IMG/VR virus record: IMGVR_UViG_3300022934_000049
Coordinates: 1 to 43,083 of that record
Length of the DNA: 43,083 bases
Reading direction: 5' to 3' (one strand)
DNA from: a virus
Shown here: positions 1 through 43,083 of the stretch, piece after piece
Layout: the number at the start of each line of letters is the position of its first letter
Position numbering within the stretch: the stretch's first letter is position 1
Made by a program: the position numbers and the translations under genes
The notes under the pieces: generated by a model
Told to the model about the DNA's origin: nothing
The model's input: the letters and a program-made list of their open reading frames with translations, nothing else
Databases searched by the model: none

Positions 1-140
1 TTCGGATACGCTTTCCGGTGCAACTCGCTAATTTTGTCGTTGTCGAGCGACTTTAGATATTCCGCTGATGTTTCCGGGAATAACGCTTGCTGTCCCGCCT
101 CGGCATATTCTTTATTCCGTAGGAGTATTTGCTTAATTCC
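1..140. repeat. Terminal overlap of a circular assembly (left copy)
   Basis: This stretch matches 42944-43083 base for base except position 14 (T here, G at 42957). It contains no repeat structure of its own and sits in the middle of a coding frame that reads through without a stop. It is therefore best read as the overlap of a circular or circularly permuted genome of 42943 bp, not as a functional terminal repeat. The mismatch changes a Lys codon (AAA) here to Gln (CAA) in the other copy, either strain variation or an error at the contig edge. Confidence 0.93.
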
Positions 141-2717
141 GCTACCGTCTTGCGGCTCCTCACCAAAAGCATCTGAGTAAATTTTTTGTAGCTGCGATCT
201 CGCGTCCATGTTTGGTTCGACCTTCGTTGGCTCCGGCTCAACGTGTTCGTATGGCTCGAGATGTTGCGGCTCAATAAGTGTTTCCTTGGATTCTCGCTGC
301 TGCTCTAGCTGCGGTTTTGTTTTATACCCCTCGTCACTCGGGGACTGTAGTTTTTGTTCACTACCCTGCCTTTGAATAAATGTCGGCCTAAGCGATTCTT
401 CTGTGTCGGTGGTTTCGTCCGCTGCGTATTGATCTGGGTCGCTGAACGTGCCTTCTTCTATGTCCTCTAACGCGCGTCTGAGTTTTCCGATTGTCGGATT
501 GTAGAGCGCAAAATTTTCGTCTTTGAAGTCCACGTAAATAATGCTTGGAGCGACTTCACTGATGTATCTTGCCAATGTCCGAAACTGTGAAGTCGTTGGC
601 ATCTTCGGGGTGTCTATTAGCGCCGCTTCCGCATCGAATCTAATAGCGTTAGCGTTTTCCAAAATGTGCATGAGCTTATGGTACTGGCTGTAGTCACGGC
701 CCATGTCCGGCTTCAGCCCCCATCTTTCCGCAGCTTCGTCTGTCATAACTGCGTCACGGTGGTCGATCACTCGATTGCCGTCTCGCGAGTCGCCACTTAG
801 GTCGAGCAGCGTTCCGTCGTTTGCAATAAAGCCCGCCGATTGCAGAGAGTCCGTTTCTGGGTATTGATTTCGCAGCCATTCGTCGTACTGATGCGGCTCC
901 ATCTGCTCCGGCTCATACGCGATTCCGTTGTAATTTTTCTCGCCTATTCTTGTGGGTTTACCATATTGATTAAAACCGCGTTTTGCTTGCCTATCGAGCA
1001 ATCGCATTAACGTCCTACCGCTGTCCGTTTTCCAATCCAGTTCTTCCTCGCCAACGTGAAAGCCCGCAATGTTCAGACTATTTTCCCTGCGATACGGGCC
1101 GGTATGGTAGGACGCAAACGCTACCGTTGCTAATTCCTCGTCGGATATGTCGGGGATCATTTCCGCAAACAAGTTTTTATCTTGTATTAGCGCGTCGATG
1201 CTTTCGCCGTGCGGTAGATCATCTTCGTCGTACTGCTCGTAGTCCGTCACCATGTCCTCGAACGCTTCTTGAGCGTTGAGCAGTCGATTGTCGAGCACGC
1301 GATTAGCTGTCTCGCTTTCGTACTTGTCTAGCTTGTCACGCAGTCCAGCAATTAGCTCGAATCCTTTTGGCACTGGTGGCTCGTCCGTCCCCACTTGCTG
1401 CTGTAGCTCCTTCACGTCTCGCAGCGTGATGTTTTTAAGATTGAGCGTTCCCTTTGCTCTCTGCTTCCAGAAGCCGAGGTTTTGCTGCACGTGCTGAAAA
1501 AGATAATATGCGTAATCGGGTAAGAGCTGTTCCGAGTCCACCGTAATCCCAATCGACTCTGGCCTGAAATCCTTGTGCGGTGTTCCGACGGTATCCTCCC
1601 CACCTTTTCGCTGAATCCAGAAGTCCGCGTTCGGATCGTTGGTTCTAGCCGTGAACGCTGGCCCTCGCGGTGTCGTTCTCGGGAATTGGCCCTCGATCCT
1701 ATCTAACGCTTCGCGCAAATCGTCCACGTGAAAGCCTAGTTCGTCCGACTCGTTTGCTATTAGCTCGTCGATAGAAGCGTCTAGTTCTCGCCACTGGTGC
1801 GGGTACAGAGGGTTTACTCGTTCGCCCTGCTCCACTCCGTCGTTGTATTCAAGCACCTCTCGCATGTCGTCAACGTAATCTCTCACGTTGTCCGAGTGGG
1901 TTTCTTCGTCGAAGTGACCGTGCTCGCGCATGAGCGTGCGACCGTGCTTTGCTTGACCCCAATCGTCGTGCTGTGCTTCGCTGCTCGTTGGGTCGATCTT
2001 TGTGAGCTTGCCCGTGTCGAATATGCGTATGCGACCGTCTGCATCTACCCCGTGCTGTATGCGGTCGTTCAGTCGCCACCCAGCGTCGTGGAACGCTTTG
2101 AGCTTTGCTCGATATTCTTTGATTTGGTCGGAAGATAGCTGGCCGCCGATTTCGACCTTGGGCATAAACGTGAATCCCTTTTCGCCGTGCTCCTCGAACT
2201 CCTGCGGGAGCAAGATATCGTGGCCCTCGCTTATCGCTTGGTTAGTCACCTCTGCCTGCCTGCGAGCGTCCGCGATTGCGTGGTGATGGGCGCGGTGGTT
2301 CTGCAAGTTGTAAGGAACGGTCGTCGTAACTTTGCCGACTCTGCCCTCGCCTACATCGAATACCATCCCGTCGTCGCCCTTGCCGAGCCACTTCGCGCGT
2401 CCCTCGCGGATCGCGTTTATGTGGTGGTTCGACGGGTGCTCCGGAACGTCAACTTTCTGGTTTAGATCGTCCGCAAAGTGCTTTACGGAGTCTCTTGGCA
2501 TTGTGTACGTGCCGCCAGTCTCAGAGCTTACGGTAGCGGAATGTCCATCGCTTTCAGTAACCGTGAATTTCGCGTCCCCAGTGATGCGTCTCTCACCGTC
2601 CGCGTCGGAATAGATCGGAACATTGAAAGTCTGCCCGACTTCGTGTCCCAATCTTTTGGGTTGTTGCGGGCCTCCCTGCCCGTCAATCGAATCTTCTTCG
2701 AGTCCGTACCTATCTAC
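1..2717 (-). CDS. Giant polyvalent protein, N-terminal part (continues at 43083)
   Basis: The minus frame is open from 2792 to base 1 and continues from the right end of the window down to 40507, about 1717 residues from 2717. No well-placed start was found: the first in-frame ATG (2499-2501) has no Shine-Dalgarno. The frame is -1 relative to the preceding gene, which ends in nine A residues, so expression by frameshift is favoured. Counting from 2717, residues about 110-245 look kinase-like: a glycine loop GKGDDGMVF, a following VGKV lysine, and later FHDAGWRLND and IFDTG resembling catalytic and DFG segments, with no C-lobe. Residues about 350-440 resemble an HsdS target-recognition domain (EDTVGTP, LLPDYAYYLF, AKGTLNLKNI). 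Residues about 625-740 hold a GFIANDGTLLDLSG...DHRDAV module without known function. A Glu/Pro-rich linker follows. It is probably packaged and injected. Domain calls are by eye; only the open frame is certain. Confidence 0.7.
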
Positions 2718-4081
2718 TTTTTTTTTAAGTCGGCTTGGTATCTCGCAACCGCTTCGCCAAACGTGCTGAAAAGTGATTGCTGGTCTGGGTGGTCATTCAT
2801 TCTGTCGAACATGAGTCCCTGCTTTGCCTTTTCTTTTTCGTTTTCCAGTTTGAACTTGTTTTGCTTGGTCGTTTTCTTGCCCGTTCCCTCGAATAGACCG
2901 AGCTGGTCGCCTTCTTCCGCTTCTTCGTTGTCTATTTCCTTGCTTGGCATGACGATACCCGATTTCTCGGGCTTATTGTCTGCTTGCAATCTGTCTACTT
3001 CTTTCTTGCCGTAAGTCTGCTGAGACTTGTAGTCGTCCTCGTCATCGTACATTGCACGCTCGAGCGGTGTCATGCTTTCCCACGTCTTTGCTTTTTCTTC
3101 GGTCGCTGCGGCGTAGCTGTCGGCTTGAAAGCGTCGTCTCCCGAGCACGGTGTCGAGCAACGTGTCTCTAGCGCCCTTTGCTGCCCGCTGCCCTAGCTGG
3201 ATACCCTTGGCGTTACCGAATCCTTCGACCAATCCCTCGCCGAATCGACGCATTGCGGATTTTCGCGGTTCCGGTGCGTAGCCTGTTCGCTCGAGAATTG
3301 CACGTAGAGCTTTTTGCATACCCTGCCCGTGAACTGCGGCTCGCAATCCGTCCGCTGTGTCGATCAACTTAGCTCCCCGCAATCCGATCATTTCCGCGAA
3401 CTGCGAGATTTCCTGTGGCGTTGCATCGAACGCTCCGGCGGCCATGAGATGATCCTCGAGCCACTGATCTTGCCCAGCGAGCCTTTTGCCACGGTCGATT
3501 GCGTCCTGCCGCCACGCATTTTCTTGGGGCGTGCGTTCTACCGGCGGTGCAATTAACTCCGGCTCCGGTTCTGGTGGCGGCGGGGGCTGCGGCGGCCCTT
3601 GCTGCTGTGCCGGTTGCGGTTGTGGTTTTGGTTGTGGTTTTGGTTGCTGTTGCTCTTGGGCCGGTGGGTTTCCTAATACTTGCTCGACGAGCGACGGATC
3701 TTTACGGAGCATTTGCAGCGCCGCGTCCTTGCCTCCTCTGCCTATTCCTTTTGCTAATTCTTGCACTGCTTGTTTGAAACTAGGCGATTCCTCGTTCACT
3801 TGCTGCGGGGGTGCTCCGCTCCCTGCTGGGCTTACTCCGCTCGGCCACCCTGCCTGCTTTGCCTGCTCCGCGAAGCTCGGCTCCGCCTCTGGCTCGCCGC
3901 CTATGGGCGTAAACTCTGTCGGCTTCATCTGCTCTTGCTTTATTGGCCCGATTGGGCCTGCTGGTGGTCGCTTCGGCTTGTTGAGTTTTGCTGTGCCTGC
4001 AACTGGTTCAAGACTCGTTGCGTCCGGCGTGCTTCGTTCCGGCTTTTCTTCATTCACGTCGGCGTAGATGTCACGGATCAT
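2714..4081 (-). CDS. Portal-proximal head protein, Pro/Gln-rich, 455 aa (frameshift donor)
   Basis: I do not recognise a family. The ATG overlaps the portal stop as ATGA, so it is translationally coupled to the portal. The N-terminal half is low-complexity (Pro, Gly, Glu), with an extreme stretch of QPKPQPKPQPQP type followed by PPPPPEPEPE at about residues 143-175. The C-terminal half is helical and charged (DHLMAAGAFDATPQEISQFA, then RRFGEGLVEGFGNAKG). In Mu-like phages this position holds the minor head protein F, but I see no gpF signature. It ends ADLKKK at an A9 slippery run, so part of the product is probably extended into the polyvalent protein. A structural role as the anchor that packages that extension is inference. 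Confidence 0.75.
   Translation of the reverse strand: MIRDIYADVNEEKPERSTPDATSLEPVAGTAKLNKPKRPPAGPIGPIKQEQMKPTEFTPIGGEPEAEPSFAEQAKQAGWPSGVSPAGSGAPPQQVNEESPSFKQAVQELAKGIGRGGKDAALQMLRKDPSLVEQVLGNPPAQEQQQPKPQPKPQPQPAQQQGPPQPPPPPEPEPELIAPPVERTPQENAWRQDAIDRGKRLAGQDQWLEDHLMAAGAFDATPQEISQFAEMIGLRGAKLIDTADGLRAAVHGQGMQKALRAILERTGYAPEPRKSAMRRFGEGLVEGFGNAKGIQLGQRAAKGARDTLLDTVLGRRRFQADSYAAATEEKAKTWESMTPLERAMYDDEDDYKSQQTYGKKEVDRLQADNKPEKSGIVMPSKEIDNEEAEEGDQLGLFEGTGKKTTKQNKFKLENEKEKAKQGLMFDRMNDHPDQQSLFSTFGEAVARYQADLKKK
2717..2726 (-). promoter_or_regulatory. Probable -1 frameshift site A AAA AAG (A9 run) joining the 455-aa protein to the polyvalent protein
   Basis: The upstream gene ends TTA AAA AAA AAG TAG. 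Nine consecutive A plus G give the classical slippery heptamer A AAA AAG directly before the stop. A one-base backward slip reads KKK then VDRYGLEED and enters the 1717-residue frame. Two small hairpins lie downstream on the mRNA, at 2687-2701 (TCGAA/TTCGA) and 2667-2682 (CGGGC/GCCCG). The absence of a start with a Shine-Dalgarno in the downstream frame supports recoding. Transcriptional slippage on A9 would give the same product; an assembly indel in the homopolymer is the main alternative. Confidence 0.6.
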
Positions 4082-5673
4082 AGGTAGGTTTCCACTCTAT
4101 TCTTAAAGGCTCTACGCATTGCTGCGCCGTTTGCTGAGTTTTGTTCTATTACCTGCCCGAGGTCGATGGGCTTTGTGGCTGGCTCGCCGGGTGCTGGCAT
4201 TGCCGACATTTGTGCCTCGACTTCTGGCTGCTGCATCGCCGCCATTCCTGCTTGCATGAAAGCGGGATTCTGTAGCACCTCGTCACTTGCGTCCGGCATG
4301 GAAACGCCGATGGTGTCGGCAACTTCGTCGGCCTTAATTTTCATCCCCATATCCCACGCCATTTTCATCGACGCGAGCCTGCGGTCGCTGTCCGGTTCTT
4401 CGGTGCTAATACGGAACTGCAAGCGTATTCCAGCACTGGACGGGAAATTCCAGAGCTGCAACGGACGAAGAAAATCGGTCGTAATCGTTTCCTCGAGATT
4501 TACGCTGTCGTACTGCACGATGTCCGCAAGGGTAGCGAGATGTGCGTCGGCAACTCCCGAACCGAGTCCCGTTGCTTCCGCTTCGCTACTGAGCACCTGC
4601 CCGAGAATGAATCGCTTTATCTTGTGGCCCCAGTACGTGCGGATCATGTCGATTGTCGTGTTGATCCCGCCTAAGCCCGGCTCGATTAGTCTCGGAACGA
4701 ATAGCTCTTGATCTTCGCCCGGCTGGATCGGTGCGAGAATGATAGTACGCCCTCCGCCCATTGCTTCTTCGGCGGCTTTTTCCGTCGCTGCTTTTTGCGC
4801 TGGGCTTCCTGCTTGGTAGGGCCATATTTCCACGCCAAACGCCGCTCGGTCGAGATACTCTACAACTCGCTGTAGGCACTCAATCATCGCGTACCAATCC
4901 CAATAGATGTAGTCGCGAATACCAACCCCGTTAATTCTGCCCGCTAGTTTCGGCTCGAAAAACGGCGCGTCCTCAATCATGTGCTTGTGAACTACCGCTT
5001 GCCGTCGCTCCCACTTGTCCAGCCAATAAACAAGCCCTTCCTCCGTCGGCTGCACTTTCTGCACCACCTCTCCGGTCGTCGGGTCGAGATAGTTTCGCGG
5101 TGCTGAGTACGCCGTGCTAACGCGGATTCCCACCTGCCCGTCCACGTGCTTTAGCGTGCCGTCGTCGAACCTGAATTTCAGCTTATCGCCGTTACGTGGC
5201 GACCACTTCGAGCAACAAATACGGTTCACTCCGCCGATTTGCTTATTCTCGAACGTGCCGAGCGTCATATATCGCCCGTACCATAAAGCCTCGAGCAAGC
5301 ATCGCCGCATCTCGGTGAATCGTGGAGTTTCCTGCAAGATGTCGGTCATGCACCTGACAAGCTCTTGCTGCTCGTAGCTGCTGCTGTCCTCTGGCTCAAT
5401 CGACCAGTTTTGTAGGGCAACCGCTCTTTGCCGTGCGTGCAAACTTTCCATGATGCCGCAATCGTTACGCATTCGGTAAGCGTTTTCGCGGCTGTCGTTA
5501 ATCGCTTGGTCGGCGGAAAGATACGAGTACGAGACAAGCCCGTAGCGCCCATTTACCGATGAAACGTGCGGTAGAATCTCGCGGTTAAAGTTAGGTGCTC
5601 CGCTAGTTCCTGCTGCCGGATCTTTTGGCCTGCTGTAAAGAAACTCGGCGGGTAGTGCAGCGTCGTTTGCCAT
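4078..5673 (-). CDS. Portal protein (DUF935 / Mu gp29-like), 531 aa
   Basis: Forms the dodecameric ring at the capsid vertex through which DNA is packaged and ejected. Family features visible: an N-terminal RNDCGIMESLHARQRAVALQ segment, WSIEPEDSS, a central LLEALWYGRYMTLGTFE segment, WSPRNGDKLKFRFDDG, and a long helix around AAFGVEIWPYQAG leading to a GGGRTIILAPIQPGED turn typical of DUF935 portals. The length fits the family. The start is an ATG two bases after the TAA of the KTSC gene; the stop overlaps the next ATG. Position immediately after terminase and before the head operon supports the call. Confidence 0.85.
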   Translation of the reverse strand: MANDAALPAEFLYSRPKDPAAGTSGAPNFNREILPHVSSVNGRYGLVSYSYLSADQAINDSRENAYRMRNDCGIMESLHARQRAVALQNWSIEPEDSSSYEQQELVRCMTDILQETPRFTEMRRCLLEALWYGRYMTLGTFENKQIGGVNRICCSKWSPRNGDKLKFRFDDGTLKHVDGQVGIRVSTAYSAPRNYLDPTTGEVVQKVQPTEEGLVYWLDKWERRQAVVHKHMIEDAPFFEPKLAGRINGVGIRDYIYWDWYAMIECLQRVVEYLDRAAFGVEIWPYQAGSPAQKAATEKAAEEAMGGGRTIILAPIQPGEDQELFVPRLIEPGLGGINTTIDMIRTYWGHKIKRFILGQVLSSEAEATGLGSGVADAHLATLADIVQYDSVNLEETITTDFLRPLQLWNFPSSAGIRLQFRISTEEPDSDRRLASMKMAWDMGMKIKADEVADTIGVSMPDASDEVLQNPAFMQAGMAAMQQPEVEAQMSAMPAPGEPATKPIDLGQVIEQNSANGAAMRRAFKNRVETYL

Positions 5674-5675
5674 TA

Positions 5676-6644
5676 TTAGCCTCTATTCGGTGTTCCACGG
5701 TCGGGGTTGCCTCGCTCCGGCGTTGCAAAATCTTGCGGGGGAAGCGTGCTACGCATGAATCCTCGTCGCTGCAACTCTCTCTCGCGTTCCGATGCGTTCG
5801 CCGGAAGTCTAGCATTAACGGCACTGGGCCTGCCAACTGGTTTTAGGTAGCGTGTCTTGAATCCCTTTGCTGTCGCTTTTCGCGGCACGTAGTCGCCGGT
5901 GACGGAAATTAGCCGATATTGCACCTGATGCCCGAAAATCGTTCCACGGACTCGCAAATGATCCCAAACGGCTGAACCCGCTGACTCTGCTGCCTGAGCG
6001 CGGAAAGCCCTGTATTTCTGCACCGTCACGCCGTAGTAAGCGTATGTCGGCCCGGGGCCTTGTCTGGGCTGGTTCTTGCTTGCGGCTTTTGCGAGAAACG
6101 TAACGTAGAGCACGCCGCTGTATTTGCTTTCCGGCTGATAGTAATAGCTGTAGACGTTAGAGCTTGCGACTTGCACCGCTCCTTCCATCGCTAGCTGGAA
6201 TTCTTCCTCGTCGTAATCAATGCCACGACCCAGCACTTCGATTTCGTCCTCCGGCTCGTCTTGTTCCTGAGCACGTCGGCGATACCACTCCGCTATCCAT
6301 TCGTCCTCGTCTGCTCGCCTGCCCGACGGGAACGGTGGCGGAATCCGTCCCGAACCTTCTTGGCCGGGCGGCACTGGTGGCGGTGGTGGTGGTGGTGGAG
6401 TCGGGCCGAATGGTGGTGGAACCGGAGCTTCCTGCAATTCCTGCTGCGGCACTCGCTGTTCTCTGGATCTCAAGCCCATTTCCTCGAGCCGTCTGCGTAT
6501 CGACCTGCCGATTCCTTGTCCTCGCTCAATCGGCGGCTTTGCAATTCGCACGGTTTCGGGCTGTTGTCGGCGCGTGCCGAGTCCGCCGGGTCTGCCGGAC
6601 AATACGCTGCGGGATAGCCTTGCTAAACGGCTGAGAGTGCTCAT
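5676..6644 (-). CDS. KTSC-domain protein with polyproline N-terminus, 322 aa
   Basis: The N-terminal 110 residues are basic then proline-rich (PTPPPPPPPPVPPG). Residues about 158-233 fit the KTSC fold: SSNVYSYYYQPESKYSGVLY, VTFLAKAAS, TYAYYGVTVQKYRAF and a small-residue helix AESAGSAVW. KTSC domains occur in phage structural and polyvalent proteins and in lysyl-tRNA-synthetase-associated contexts; their role in phages is not established. The C-terminus is basic and ends in PERGNPDRGTPNRG-type repeats. Start and the terminase stop share TAATG, so translation is coupled. Lying between terminase and portal, it may be a minor head protein; this is inference. Confidence 0.7.
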   Translation of the reverse strand: MSTLSRLARLSRSVLSGRPGGLGTRRQQPETVRIAKPPIERGQGIGRSIRRRLEEMGLRSREQRVPQQELQEAPVPPPFGPTPPPPPPPPVPPGQEGSGRIPPPFPSGRRADEDEWIAEWYRRRAQEQDEPEDEIEVLGRGIDYDEEEFQLAMEGAVQVASSNVYSYYYQPESKYSGVLYVTFLAKAASKNQPRQGPGPTYAYYGVTVQKYRAFRAQAAESAGSAVWDHLRVRGTIFGHQVQYRLISVTGDYVPRKATAKGFKTRYLKPVGRPSAVNARLPANASERERELQRRGFMRSTLPPQDFATPERGNPDRGTPNRG

Positions 6645-8065
6645 TACCTGACCCTGTTGTAAAGGTTGCGCCGCCCTCGCCCTCCGCTAAGTGATTGTAA
6701 GCTCTTTCCGAACTGATTGGTTTCTACTTGGTGACGCTTGCGGTCTGCAACCGCATCTTCCGGCTGAGTGAGAGCGGCTAATCGGTTCAGCCCAGCACTA
6801 GCCGCGTCAACTTGGTCAGCCTGTGCTGACTCGGGAAACGCACTCAATTCGCTGAGAAACTCTTGATTCCACTGTCCTTTGACAATCCGCACGTTACCGG
6901 CTTCCGCCTGAGCCGCTAGTGGTTGTGCTCGAGTAATCTTTGCCTGACCCGGCAATTTTACGCCGCCTACGTTTCGTTGAGCTGAACCGCTCGCCAAGTC
7001 TCGGTAGACCGGATAGCCCGCGAGCATCTTTATCATTTGCTGCATGACCTCCTTGCCTCCCGAGCCGCCTTCCTGTTCGGCGTAAATTAGCACCTCTCCT
7101 TTAAACTCCTCCGCGTCCGCCTGAGCTGTTTGCAGAATCACCGTGTCGCGGTCTGCTGGCGACCACTGCCCTCTCACAACGTCCTCGATATAAAAGATTC
7201 CCCTCGGGCAGCGTGCGACTCTCACGCCCGCCGTGTACGAGCTGGTGCTGATCGTACTCGCCGCTTTATCCCAATAGCGGACTCTCAGTGCTTCCCTCGG
7301 TGCGTAATCGACCGGCTGGAACCACTCTCGCCGGAACATAAGCCCGTCGATGTCGATGAACTGCCCGCCAAGTTCCTGAGCCGCCAATAGCGGGCTTAGG
7401 TCTTGCTGCATCGAGTCGAAGAAGTCCTCGGGCAAAAACGGGTTGTCTGCCGTGCTCGCTTGTATGAGCTTCACGCCTTTTTTCGGAACGTAAGGAACGC
7501 CCTGTATCGTCACCTGATTCGGCTCGTCGCCGTTTGCTCTCGAGTAGCATAGCTCGAACGTCCAGTGGCTTCGCCCGCGTGGTGTCATAGTGAGAATTGT
7601 CGGCCCCATTACTCCGCCGCGCCGTAGCGTAGCCCTCGCGATCCGCATTGCGTCGATAGGTTGGTAACTGGCTTCGTCGAGCCATAGACCCGATTTGTTC
7701 GGCCCTCGCAGCTTGTCCGGCTTTTCCGCCGACCTGAATACAATGTGAGCTTCTCCGCCGTCTAGCGTCTGCCACCATATCCTCGGGTACGGACTCATGA
7801 CGACACGATTCAAACAGTTCAGCTTCTCGCAATTCTCAATAAACGTCGGCACGGTCGTCTCGAGACTCACGCCCGCGTCCGGGCTGACCGCCATCCACTG
7901 ATCGTCGTTGCGTGCTCGCGTGATGATCCGATAGCTACCGATGAAGGTTTTGCCACCCCCACGCCCGCACACCATCGCAGTGATGGGCGCATCGCTAGCG
8001 AGGAAGTCTGCTTGCACTTGGCTAATTGGCAGAACATTAACGGCTTCGTCGTTCGCAGCAATCAT
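6644..8065 (-). CDS. Terminase large subunit, 473 aa
   Basis: ATP-driven DNA packaging motor and headful or site-specific nuclease. The ATPase domain shows Walker A GRGGGKT at residues 34-40, Walker B LWLDE at 127-131 and the coupling motif TMTPRG at 159-164. The C-terminal RNase H-like nuclease has the first acidic residue in RYWDKAAS (Asp266), a second segment FYIEDVVRGQWSPADRD, and IYAEQEGGSGGKE with Glu330/Glu332. The length is normal for the family. ATG overlaps the small-terminase stop as ATGA. The nuclease motifs are intact, so the protein should be active. Confidence 0.95.
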   Translation of the reverse strand: MIAANDEAVNVLPISQVQADFLASDAPITAMVCGRGGGKTFIGSYRIITRARNDDQWMAVSPDAGVSLETTVPTFIENCEKLNCLNRVVMSPYPRIWWQTLDGGEAHIVFRSAEKPDKLRGPNKSGLWLDEASYQPIDAMRIARATLRRGGVMGPTILTMTPRGRSHWTFELCYSRANGDEPNQVTIQGVPYVPKKGVKLIQASTADNPFLPEDFFDSMQQDLSPLLAAQELGGQFIDIDGLMFRREWFQPVDYAPREALRVRYWDKAASTISTSSYTAGVRVARCPRGIFYIEDVVRGQWSPADRDTVILQTAQADAEEFKGEVLIYAEQEGGSGGKEVMQQMIKMLAGYPVYRDLASGSAQRNVGGVKLPGQAKITRAQPLAAQAEAGNVRIVKGQWNQEFLSELSAFPESAQADQVDAASAGLNRLAALTQPEDAVADRKRHQVETNQFGKSLQSLSGGRGRRNLYNRVR

Positions 8066-17378: not shown

Positions 17379-17970
17379 GCTTTCTTGGTACGTACCATTG
17401 CCGCTTGGTGCTTGTGGAAGTGGTGTTTTGCCTCGTCCACGGTATCCGTTAATGCCGCGTACCAACCGACTTTCTGGCTGCCCGTCATGGCTGTAACTGT
17501 TCCGAGTCTGACTGACTCTGCGTGCCGAATGATCGCCCGGTCTTTGTTAAGCCACAACGAGAAGAATAGATCGTAGCGTTTTTCGATGAGTTGGTTCAAA
17601 TCCCCAACTCCGTAGGATGCCGCTACGTCGCAGAATGGGCCGTTTTTTTTTGAATCTGGAAGCACCATAGATCGAAAGCATCGACCAATCCGATCAGTTC
17701 CGCGATTGTCATGCCTTCGCCGGTTTTCTCGTCCAGCCGTGGAATCCCGAACGCTATTTCCGCCGCTTGTGCAACGATTTCCATAGAAGCTGGCTCGAGA
17801 TTCTTGGCCTGCTGCAAGTGCTGCTCGGTGTATCGCTTATCAAACTTGAGAGCGAGAGCAATCGCCATTGGATCGGCATATCGCTTTTCGCCGCTTGCCT
17901 CATACGTGAATATGTTGCGGTTTTTGTTCTCTGCTCGCAATCTGCGACGATGCAACCACCTGCGTATCAT
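17375..17970 (-). CDS. Frameshifted tail assembly chaperone G-T fusion, about 198 aa
   Basis: A -1 slip on CAA AAA AAA C (A9 at 17643-17651) converts QKKTAHSAT into QKKNGPFCDVAASYGVGDLN and adds about 89 residues, ending HHFHKHQAAMVRTKKA. The T part has no well-placed start of its own; its frame begins within the G gene at a GTG-like codon without a Shine-Dalgarno. In lambda and most long-tailed phages the G:GT ratio is set by such a -1 site and is needed for tail assembly. A perfect CGTAG/CTACG hairpin at 17611-17626 stands 16 bases downstream as a possible stimulator. Confidence 0.8.
17623..17970 (-). CDS. Tail assembly chaperone (lambda gpG-like), 115 aa
   Basis: Short-frame product of the chaperone pair that coats the tape measure during tail assembly in siphophages. 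It starts at ATG one base after the previous stop. The central part LKFDKRYTEQHLQQAKNLEP and GEGMTIAELIGLVDAFDLWC fits the small helical chaperones of this class. It ends shortly after an A9 run (QIQKKTAHSAT), where the ribosome can slip back one base. Call by position, size and slippery site; direct homology cannot be tested here. Confidence 0.75.
   Translation of the reverse strand: MIRRWLHRRRLRAENKNRNIFTYEASGEKRYADPMAIALALKFDKRYTEQHLQQAKNLEPASMEIVAQAAEIAFGIPRLDEKTGEGMTIAELIGLVDAFDLWCFQIQKKTAHSAT
17643..17652 (-). promoter_or_regulatory. -1 ribosomal frameshift site (A AAA AAA) in tail chaperone
   Basis: Nine A residues in frame as CAA AAA AAA A provide the heptamer A AAA AAA. The shift connects 17623-17970 to the frame ending at 17375. 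The arrangement matches the conserved G/GT recoding site of siphophage tail genes. Confidence 0.85.
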
Positions 17971-40506: not shown

Positions 40507-43083
40507 TCATTCTGCGGCTTGATAGAGCAAGCGCCTTGAATCTGGCCCTTGGCGAGTAAAATAGCCGAGATTGTGTGCGCTTTTTACTTGATCGGTTTGG
40601 AATGCTACGTACACGTCGGCGGGTGGGTAATCTTCAAAATCCAGATCGAACTCCTCCACTGCTCCGCCGTAGTCCACGATGTCCTTAAATATAATGCCGT
40701 CGTAGCCAGCATCTTGAGCGGCTTTTGCGTAGTCTCTGGTCGTAAGCTGATATGGAATCGCAACTGTTTCTTTCAATATGTCGAACGCTGGAACGCCGTA
40801 AATCTCGCTTACTTCGTCGATTATCCTTGCAAGGACTAGATTGTCGGTAACGTCGTCGGCATCAAAATCGTCATCGAGAGGGTTTAGATCGCCGAGCTGC
40901 TCCATTTGTTGTTCCGCTTCCGCATCGTTTTGGCTGAACAACCAACTGCGCAACTCCATTGAAGCCTGCGGGTAAGGATTATATCCGGCGTGAGTTATCC
41001 AGTTTGTTAATTGCGGCTGAGTCAGTAACTCGCGAGCTGACGCATACGACTCCGCGTAGTCTTGGTCGAAGTCGCTCGTGGCGAATAAATCTATGTCATT
41101 CCATAGGTTCCCATTTCCTTCGATAATAAGTGGTTTTTCTAGCCGGTAGACAAGCGGATAAACGCCTTTTGCCTGTATGTCTTTACCTCGCTGTCTTTGC
41201 TGTGATGGGTCGTGCAGCCATTTATTCCATCCAACGACTAATTCAAGATCGTTCCCGGACGATATTACCGCTTTCGGCGGTATCTGCGTGTCGTCGCCGA
41301 TTTCTCTCGGCAATTCGTCTCGTGATAGAACTGCGAGCGTTCCAGTTTCGGGATTAGAAAGAAGGTATGACGATACTCTTTCGCCGTCTGGCTCTATGTA
41401 TTCCATAAACAACTTTTTGCTTTTGCTTACGGCTTCTCGCACGTCGTCTACGGTGTTTGCAAACGCCGGTGTTGCGTCATCGTAGTATCCGTTGTTGTAA
41501 GACGTTCCCATTGTCACGTCTGTCGAACTGTAGATATGACCATCTACGTCCAGATTTGCGAACTCGCCGAATCCTCCTAGCGGCGTGCCGTGGAACAAAA
41601 TAAGAGGCAGCCCGTCGCTGTCGAGTGCTACACCGTCACGATTCCATTCCCAATAGTTCGGATTGCTAGCGACTTTTAACTTCATATCCTGAAGCTGCAT
41701 ACGGGCCGATTCCGCTAAATGATGATCGTACAGCTCGCCGTACTGCTCCTGCCAATCGTTCAGCGTAGAGGTAGCTGTGTACGCTTCTTCTATTGCCGCC
41801 GTCGCGCTGTTGGCTATTTCTTCCGCGCGCTTTGTGTACGGCCCGATATCCCCAAACTCGAGCAGACTTTCGGTGGTGTATCGCAACTGATCTCGATACT
41901 TGTCCATCCACTGCATTGAGATTGCTTGCTCCTTCTGACGTTCATCTAAACTTCCGATGAAATTGTTGAAGCGATACAGAAACGTCAATCTTTTCTTAAA
42001 CTCCTTCCATGACTCCGATTGTGTTTCATATAACTGATCCATGTATTCCGGGTCGGTTCTTTGATCCGCAAGATTCTCAAACACGTTTTGCAGAGAAAAA
42101 TATCTGCCGCTGAGTGTGTGTCTGCCGTAATTGTCTAGCGCGTTGCTTTTTTGCTCGTCGCTTAACTGGTCGTTATCAAGAAAATTGCCGCGTTCCGCTG
42201 CAATCACTAACGAATCGAACCATTTTTTTTCGCCCTGCGGATTCGCTCGCGTTTTGTCTATAAAGTAACTATCTAAGTCCCTAACCATTTCAGTCCCGCC
42301 CATTCCGTCGTCGTATTCGTATGGAGCGCTTATTTCAAACTGCAACTCGTACTGCTGCGGTGCTTCTTTTCTTTCTATTTGTCTCAGCAAGGCATCCATC
42401 TGCGACTCGGCTTTTTTTGCCTCTCGAGCTGCTTTTCCTATTTGCTGTCTCTTTGCAACGTCTAACGAGTTCTTCTGCTCTTTGAGATTTTTCGCTTCAT
42501 AGTTAGACCGTTGCATAGCCTGCTGATACTTACCGGCCATTTGCTTCGCGTTTTTGACACGTTCTTTTATTACGTGATTAACTTTGTACGCCGTGCTTTG
42601 CTGGTCGCGAGTTCCCACTTCGTCGATAGCCGCGTAATCTTTTATGTGCTTCTTCGGTACACGAAAAACTTTGAAGTGCTTGCTGTAAATCGGCTGGTCG
42701 TAATTTGATTCGTCGTCCCATTGGCCGGAAGCCTCGAGATTGCGTTGTAGATAATTTAACACGTCGGGCATACCTGACTTCTCAGTCAAGAACACGTTGC
42801 CGCGTATGTTGTGCTGCAAACCTCCACCGAAATTGCTGCTCTGATTCGGCTTCAACCCTTCCTTCTGAATCCAGCTACCGGAGTCGGCTCGAGCCACGTG
42901 GTAAAGATAGTCGTCGTCTGCAAACGGGTTTACACGTTCGGGCTTCGGATACGCTTGCCGGTGCAACTCGCTAATTTTGTCGTTGTCGAGCGACTTTAGA
43001 TATTCCGCTGATGTTTCCGGGAATAACGCTTGCTGTCCCGCCTCGGCATATTCTTTATTCCGTAGGAGTATTTGCTTAATTCC
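40507..43083 (-). CDS. Giant polyvalent protein, C-terminal part with ADP-ribosyltransferase domains
   Basis: Continuation across the contig join of the frame at 1-2717. An ART-like N-terminal signature (LYHVARADSGSWIQKEGLKP, then GNVFLTE) lies at about residue 918 of the joined protein. A long charged coiled-coil region (about residues 990-1100) and a helical segment follow. A clear ART-PolyVal-type domain ends the protein: LILFHGTPLGGFGEF at about 1348, STDVTMGTSYN, then GYDGIIFKD and VAFQTDQVKSAHNLGYF near 1690. In that family the FHGT His, the Tyr and the Gln/Glu of the QVKS motif form the NAD-binding and catalytic set; all three are visible. It probably modifies host or nucleoid targets after injection; the substrate is unknown. 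The stop lies 46 bases before the next gene, the metallopeptidase polyvalent protein. Confidence 0.8.
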   Translation of the reverse strand, partial: GIKQILLRNKEYAEAGQQALFPETSAEYLKSLDNDKISELHRQAYPKPERVNPFADDDYLYHVARADSGSWIQKEGLKPNQSSNFGGGLQHNIRGNVFLTEKSGMPDVLNYLQRNLEASGQWDDESNYDQPIYSKHFKVFRVPKKHIKDYAAIDEVGTRDQQSTAYKVNHVIKERVKNAKQMAGKYQQAMQRSNYEAKNLKEQKNSLDVAKRQQIGKAAREAKKAESQMDALLRQIERKEAPQQYELQFEISAPYEYDDGMGGTEMVRDLDSYFIDKTRANPQGEKKWFDSLVIAAERGNFLDNDQLSDEQKSNALDNYGRHTLSGRYFSLQNVFENLADQRTDPEYMDQLYETQSESWKEFKKRLTFLYRFNNFIGSLDERQKEQAISMQWMDKYRDQLRYTTESLLEFGDIGPYTKRAEEIANSATAAIEEAYTATSTLNDWQEQYGELYDHHLAESARMQLQDMKLKVASNPNYWEWNRDGVALDSDGLPLILFHGTPLGGFGEFANLDVDGHIYSSTDVTMGTSYNNGYYDDATPAFANTVDDVREAVSKSKKLFMEYIEPDGERVSSYLLSNPETGTLAVLSRDELPREIGDDTQIPPKAVISSGNDLELVVGWNKWLHDPSQQRQRGKDIQAKGVYPLVYRLEKPLIIEGNGNLWNDIDLFATSDFDQDYAESYASARELLTQPQLTNWITHAGYNPYPQASMELRSWLFSQNDAEAEQQMEQLGDLNPLDDDFDADDVTDNLVLARIIDEVSEIYGVPAFDILKETVAIPYQLTTRDYAKAAQDAGYDGIIFKDIVDYGGAVEEFDLDFEDYPPADVYVAFQTDQVKSAHNLGYFTRQGPDSRRLLYQAAE
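42944..43083. repeat. Terminal overlap of a circular assembly (right copy)
   Basis: Second copy of bases 1-140, with one mismatch at 42957. Joining the two copies restores a single long minus-strand reading frame. A true short direct terminal repeat cannot be excluded, but one falling inside an essential-looking gene would be unusual. Confidence 0.93.

Follow-up and report, generated by a model that had tools for sequence, protein, structure and literature searches.

The 455-residue product of the gene next to the portal is probably joined to the giant protein encoded behind it by a conserved -1 recoding event. We analysed a window, meaning the whole stretch of 43,083 nucleotides of IMG/VR record IMGVR_UViG_3300022934_000049, and found that the -1 frameshift fusion claimed in a preliminary description of this DNA is well supported: the slip site is conserved, a start codon for the downstream frame is absent, and the start-less segment bears the mark of purifying selection. 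According to this model, most translation would halt at the UAG and yield the 455-residue protein, and a minority would slip to the -1 frame on the run of nine or ten A followed by G, yielding a 2172-residue fusion with a kinase-like segment, a domain of ~100 residues and one or more ART-like regions. The slip would be made either by the ribosome at A_AAA_AAG or by RNA polymerase adding one A. We infer that both products are made, in unequal amounts, and the 455-residue protein is likely the abundant short product.

Besides the window, we found the gene pair in six IMG/VR genomes of this small group of uncultivated phages: L002, L006, L010, L003, L005 and L004/L070. The features of the locus in the window are as follows.

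6644-8065, minus strand: terminase, 5' of the 322-residue gene and the portal gene.
Between terminase and portal, minus strand: 322-residue gene.
4078-5673, minus strand: portal protein of the Portal_Mu family, 531 residues (Pfam PF06074, E=6e-32).
2714-4081, minus strand: 0-frame ORF ('up'), 455 residues, Pro/Gln-rich and partly disordered with helical segments, as judged from alignment and model.
2717-2726, minus strand: slip site, A9 (2726-2718) then G, with A_AAA_AAG in phase with the 455-residue ORF.
2714-2716, minus strand: 0-frame stop TAG directly 3' of the slip site, kept in 4/4 slip-site genomes.
2687-2701, minus strand: hairpin TCGAA-GAAGA-TTCGA.
2664-2686, minus strand: hairpin UUG-A-CGGGC-AGGGAG-GCCCG-CAA, the core of which starts 34 nt past the AAG.
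1347-1679, minus strand: mobile domain of ~100 residues, after the slip site in the window, L002 and L006.
1-2726, minus strand: first part of the -1-frame ORF ('down'), 908 residues from KKKV, start-less.
40507-43083, minus strand: second part of the -1-frame ORF, 858 residues, the opening 46 of which duplicate the last ones of the first part through the overlap of the contig ends.

The gene pair lies directly 3' of the terminase and portal genes, and the portal stop codon overlaps the ATG of the 455-residue gene. The portal shares 92-95% identity with those of close relatives. Bases 1-140 of the window are the same as bases 42944-43083 apart from one mismatch, which gives K/Q in the giant protein, and through this 140-bp overlap the giant ORF resumes at 43083 and runs down to 40507. 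The join across the window ends is supported by unbroken giant ORFs in two relatives, since the corresponding 1550-codon ORF of L002 is intact within one contig and L010 has one of more than 2000 codons. Judging from its ends, this is probably a circular or a permuted genome, whereas the IMG/VR record lists it as linear. The giant part thus amounts to 908 + 858 - 46 = 1720 residues with the KKK and 1717 without, and the earlier figure of about 2172 residues for the fusion proved exact (455 + 1717 = 2172).

The described end of the 455-residue gene, AAA AAA AAG TAG with the next frame one base back, was confirmed in the sequence. The 3' end of the gene reads GAC TTA AAA AAA AAG TAG, and one base back the reading becomes AAA AAA AAA GTA GAT AGG TAC and so on; this -1 frame is open from codon -22, by way of KKKVDRYGLEEDS, as far as window base 1. 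The locus holds an in-phase slippery heptamer within a two-frame overlap, as a programmed -1 frameshift cassette does, and a run of at least nine A, as a transcriptional slippage site does (A9, A9, A9 and A10 in four genomes); with the run broken, the site would read, for example, AAGAAGAAG. The A8G string by itself is unremarkable, with 0.82 expected per window, and what takes it beyond chance is the in-phase position right before the stop, an unchanged -1 relation in three more genomes whose proteins are 35-60% identical to those of the window, and the lack of the string, with a proper start in its place, in the other three. A second A9 run is present at 17643-17651 on the minus strand, where ORFs of 115 and 97 residues overlap; it is probably a coincidence, the 97-residue ORF having its own ATG just upstream.

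We compared the length of the A-run among the relatives. The junction reads A9-G-TAG in L002 and L006 and A10-G-TAG in L010, the upstream protein ends at that TAG in all of them, and the downstream protein carries on in the -1 frame, the extra A of L010 being compensated and the frame relation thereby preserved. The slip-site set therefore comprised four genomes (the window, L002, L006 and L010), of which L002 and L006 are mutually close. All four share the DNA AAAAAAAAAGTAGATAGGTAC, and identity to the window is 35-46% for the upstream proteins and 49-60% for the N-terminal parts of the downstream proteins. Across the overlapping ORF pairs of every fetched locus, A_AAA_AAG with an overlapping -1 ORF that lacks a nearby start was found in this clade only. 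Alignment-based searches of IMG/VR revealed no genomes with both genes beyond the six known relatives, and a DNA pattern search yielded no genomes other than the three slip-site relatives. Among isolated phages, protein searches gave no relative of either half and a weak match to the portal only, and a search of genome collections gave only the L003 contig and distant planctomycete loci. The phage contig of L003 (L017, NZGG01000012.1) is binned in the gammaproteobacterial MAG MED690 and may be a free virus rather than a prophage.

The downstream frame was then assessed for start codons and selection. The -1 frame opens 22, 13, 1 and 8 codons before the KKK codons in the window, L002, L006 and L010, respectively; since it opens one codon before the A-run in L006, the shift must occur on the run itself. 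The first ATG, GTG or TTG of this frame is codon 26 (TTG) in the window, 34 in L002, 92 in L006 and 11 in L010, and none is shared among the four genomes, which agrees with the earlier statement that the giant frame has no convincing start of its own. Comparison of L002 with L006 over codons 21-111 revealed 28 third-position changes versus 4 first- or second-position changes, with 88 of the 91 residues the same, a pattern of strong purifying selection which shows that the segment is translated. Most of these codons precede any possible start in L006. The lack of a shared start, combined with selection on a start-less segment, makes recoding close to required. Codons for the same residue were also more often identical between the slip site and the hairpin end than elsewhere (13 of 14 between the window and L002, p ~0.0003; 13 of 15 with L006, p ~0.003; 8 of 9 with L010, p ~0.008), a supporting rather than decisive result, as the region was picked after viewing the alignment and the genome pairs are not independent.

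Other explanations for the divided frame were weighed against these data. Homopolymers are error-prone and the window is one metagenomic assembly, so a misread or misassembled A-run might have split one continuous gene; this is extremely improbable and largely refuted, because four independent, diverged assemblies share the TAG and the frame relation. Homopolymers of 9-10 are also mutable, and the run length differs among relatives (A9, A10), as phase variation would have it: the A9 would be hypermutable, and A10 genomes in the population would carry one continuous 2172-residue gene, which A9 genomes would not. Random switching would give a mixture of states, but each of the four assemblies shows the one -1 'off' state, with the extra A of L010 compensated, and we regard this explanation as improbable. 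It is very improbable that the downstream protein starts independently, either at a non-standard codon, such as a conserved ATT ~12 codons in, or by reinitiation after the TAG. An ATT within DS-I-D is common to three genomes, and L006 has AGAGG five bases upstream of it; ATT is very rarely used as a start, however, this one is absent in L010 and without a Shine-Dalgarno sequence in L002, and the preceding codons VDRY are conserved as well.

Given recoding, ribosome slippage and polymerase slippage both fit the slip site. In E. coli, few heptamers are as slippery as A_AAA_AAG, and bacterial RNA polymerase slips efficiently on stretches of nine A or nine T, for example in Thermus dnaX (PMC5009743). 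In transcriptional slippage, RNA polymerase would add one A (or drop two) on A9/A10, part of the mRNAs would then carry the fusion as a single unbroken frame, and the same proteins would be made by a different machine. We consider this quite possible, as the runs have 9-10 A in all four genomes although A6G suffices for ribosomal slippage, and neither an upstream Shine-Dalgarno sequence nor a hairpin at the usual distance was seen. On the other hand, A_AAA_AAG is in phase in 4/4 genomes, which transcriptional slippage alone would not need, the codon-level constraint reaches ~50 nt past the A-run, and a long ORF of contig L021 contains A9 runs, where slippage would be costly. The L021 runs, at L021:18487 and 18763, are two in one long ORF of the L003 genome and suggest that A9 alone is tolerated in coding sequence.

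The two stimulator hairpins proposed for the window are doubtful. The one at 2687-2701 is not conserved in relatives. The other, given as 2667-2682, is conserved in sequence in L002 and L006, but it lies 34 nt away, whereas the usual distance of a stimulator hairpin is 5-9 nt (PMC5009743), and its role is therefore uncertain. In L010, an unrelated 10-bp hairpin is found 32 nt past the AAG. Fold scores around the slip site were modest, except in L010.

The remaining three relatives have a different junction. In L003, L005 and L004 (its junction being on L070), there is no A-run, the upstream gene ends CGG TGA, and a downstream-frame ATG with a plausible ribosome-binding site follows a few bases on (TGAGGATATG). 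The second protein of these relatives appears to start separately at this ATG, indicating that not every member needs the covalent fusion. In the portal tree, they group with L010, apart from the window, L002 and L006 (moderate support, 81/100). As the slip site is present in both subclades of the tree, the slip sequence probably goes back to their common ancestor, and the L003 lineage has replaced it. That the same downstream protein is made there from a separate, translationally coupled ATG favours the view that recoding sets the dosage of the downstream protein only, with the fusion incidental and nothing packaged. We consider this view rather unlikely, because the slip product is always a fusion and the two solutions are thus not equivalent, and because a domain relocated across the junction and the portal fusions of relatives, both described below, suggest that the halves act together.

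We next consider the two halves. The 455-residue protein had no family match in Pfam or PHROG, and its model, which was helical and of low confidence (pLDDT 57, pTM 0.27), had no meaningful structural neighbour. It had been called a head protein, a name that follows from its portal-adjacent position; no family match or confident fold match was found that would back it. From its position, the short product would be a virion component. Identity as a MuF head protein was rejected, as the gene after the portal had no Pfam or PHROG match. Within the product of 2714-4081, residues 391-397 (GDQLGLF) are invariant and residues 432-438 (PDQQSLF) are conserved, and the giant protein has a similar GQQALF. 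GDQLGLF and PDQQSLF resemble sliding-clamp-binding motifs.

In the giant protein, fold comparison placed the kinase-like segment at about residues 100-270, where nearly all top matches were protein kinases, at E above 0.03; the model of the N-terminal part was of low confidence (pLDDT 62, pTM 0.37), and the fold support for the kinase-like assignment is weak. The HsdS-like segment of the preliminary description found no support, since no HsdS similarity was detected by sequence in residues 350-460. Of the two ART-like domains described, the window has one Pfam match, to PF18760 (ART-PolyVal), at E=3e-6 and below the curated cut-off, and the matches are clear and above the cut-off in L010 and L003. 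As a candidate polyvalent protein of a portal-terminase phage, the window protein presents a sub-threshold ART-PolyVal match and a weak kinase fold. The mobile domain of ~100 residues is found before the junction, within 'up', in L010, L003 and L005, with 53-56% identity to the window copy. Its occurrence on either side of the junction suggests that both halves are parts of a single functional unit.

Fusions of this kind were also seen at the portal itself. In the distant relatives L018, L029, L033, L035, L049 and L050, a Mu-type portal is in frame with long C-terminal parts (ORFs of 1129-2780 residues), and the fused domains are ART-PolyVal, InPase, topoisomerase IB, PAPS reductase-like or SAM lyase-like. 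A single frame of 3549 codons with LPD1 and the kinase-like segment lies just 3' of the portal at L028:11510-21460. Fusions of portal and MuF proteins to polyvalent domains have been described by Iyer et al. 2017 (PMC5512222). The in-frame portal fusions make effector-loading of the particle more plausible, and the apparent separate synthesis of the second protein in three relatives weakens it. The fusion would ride in the particle and be delivered with the DNA, following the logic of Gag-Pol; whether it is packaged and injected seems to us almost evenly balanced, leaning slightly against. As a tentative and possible synthesis, we propose a Gag-Pol-like strategy in which a -1 slip would attach a multi-effector of 1717 residues to a small share of the copies of a virion protein encoded near the portal, a few copies would be packaged and injected, domains would shift between the halves, and a sister lineage would have swapped the slip for separate initiation.

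The dosing and limiting of virion-carried effectors in phages are poorly understood. With a recoding site placed between a gene near the portal and a polyvalent protein, the effector would be made at a fixed low ratio and would have its packaging tag built in. Gene callers will report such a giant protein as start-less or truncated. Frameshift-extended head proteins are known from phages T7, T3 and Lactobacillus phage A2 (PMC5009743). As in those phages, a -1 frameshift in the final part of a virion gene would here give a minority product with a C-terminal extension, the virion role here being assigned from position. In T7, T3 and A2, however, it is the major capsid protein that is extended, by a short or an Ig-like piece, whereas here a non-capsid gene would gain 1717 effector-like residues, and the window 0-frame product has no family or confident fold match that would place it with T7 10B or the A2 protein. 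Lambda G/GT is likewise a case of conserved -1 frameshifting within the structural genes of a phage. Identity as a G/GT tail assembly chaperone was rejected, as G/GT precede the tape measure gene and the present pair directly follows terminase and portal. The A_AAA_AAG cassettes of dnaX and insertion sequences share the heptamer and a nearby 0-frame stop; here, there is no upstream Shine-Dalgarno sequence and no hairpin at 5-9 nt, and the A-run is longer.

Polyvalent proteins (PMC5512222) are, like the giant protein, multi-domain proteins with ART and other effectors beside portal genes, and are thought to be packaged and injected. They are described as single polypeptides, and 'frameshift' is absent from the text of that paper; here, the link is a recoding site. 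In retroviral Gag-Pol, a frameshift puts enzymes on a structural protein for low-copy entry into the particle (PMC5009743); the proteins are unrelated to those described here, for which packaging is a proposal. The combination of the three known ingredients was not found in the papers searched, all from the open-licence literature of PubMed Central. The parts are known and the combination appears to be new: a Gag-Pol-like layout for a phage polyvalent protein.
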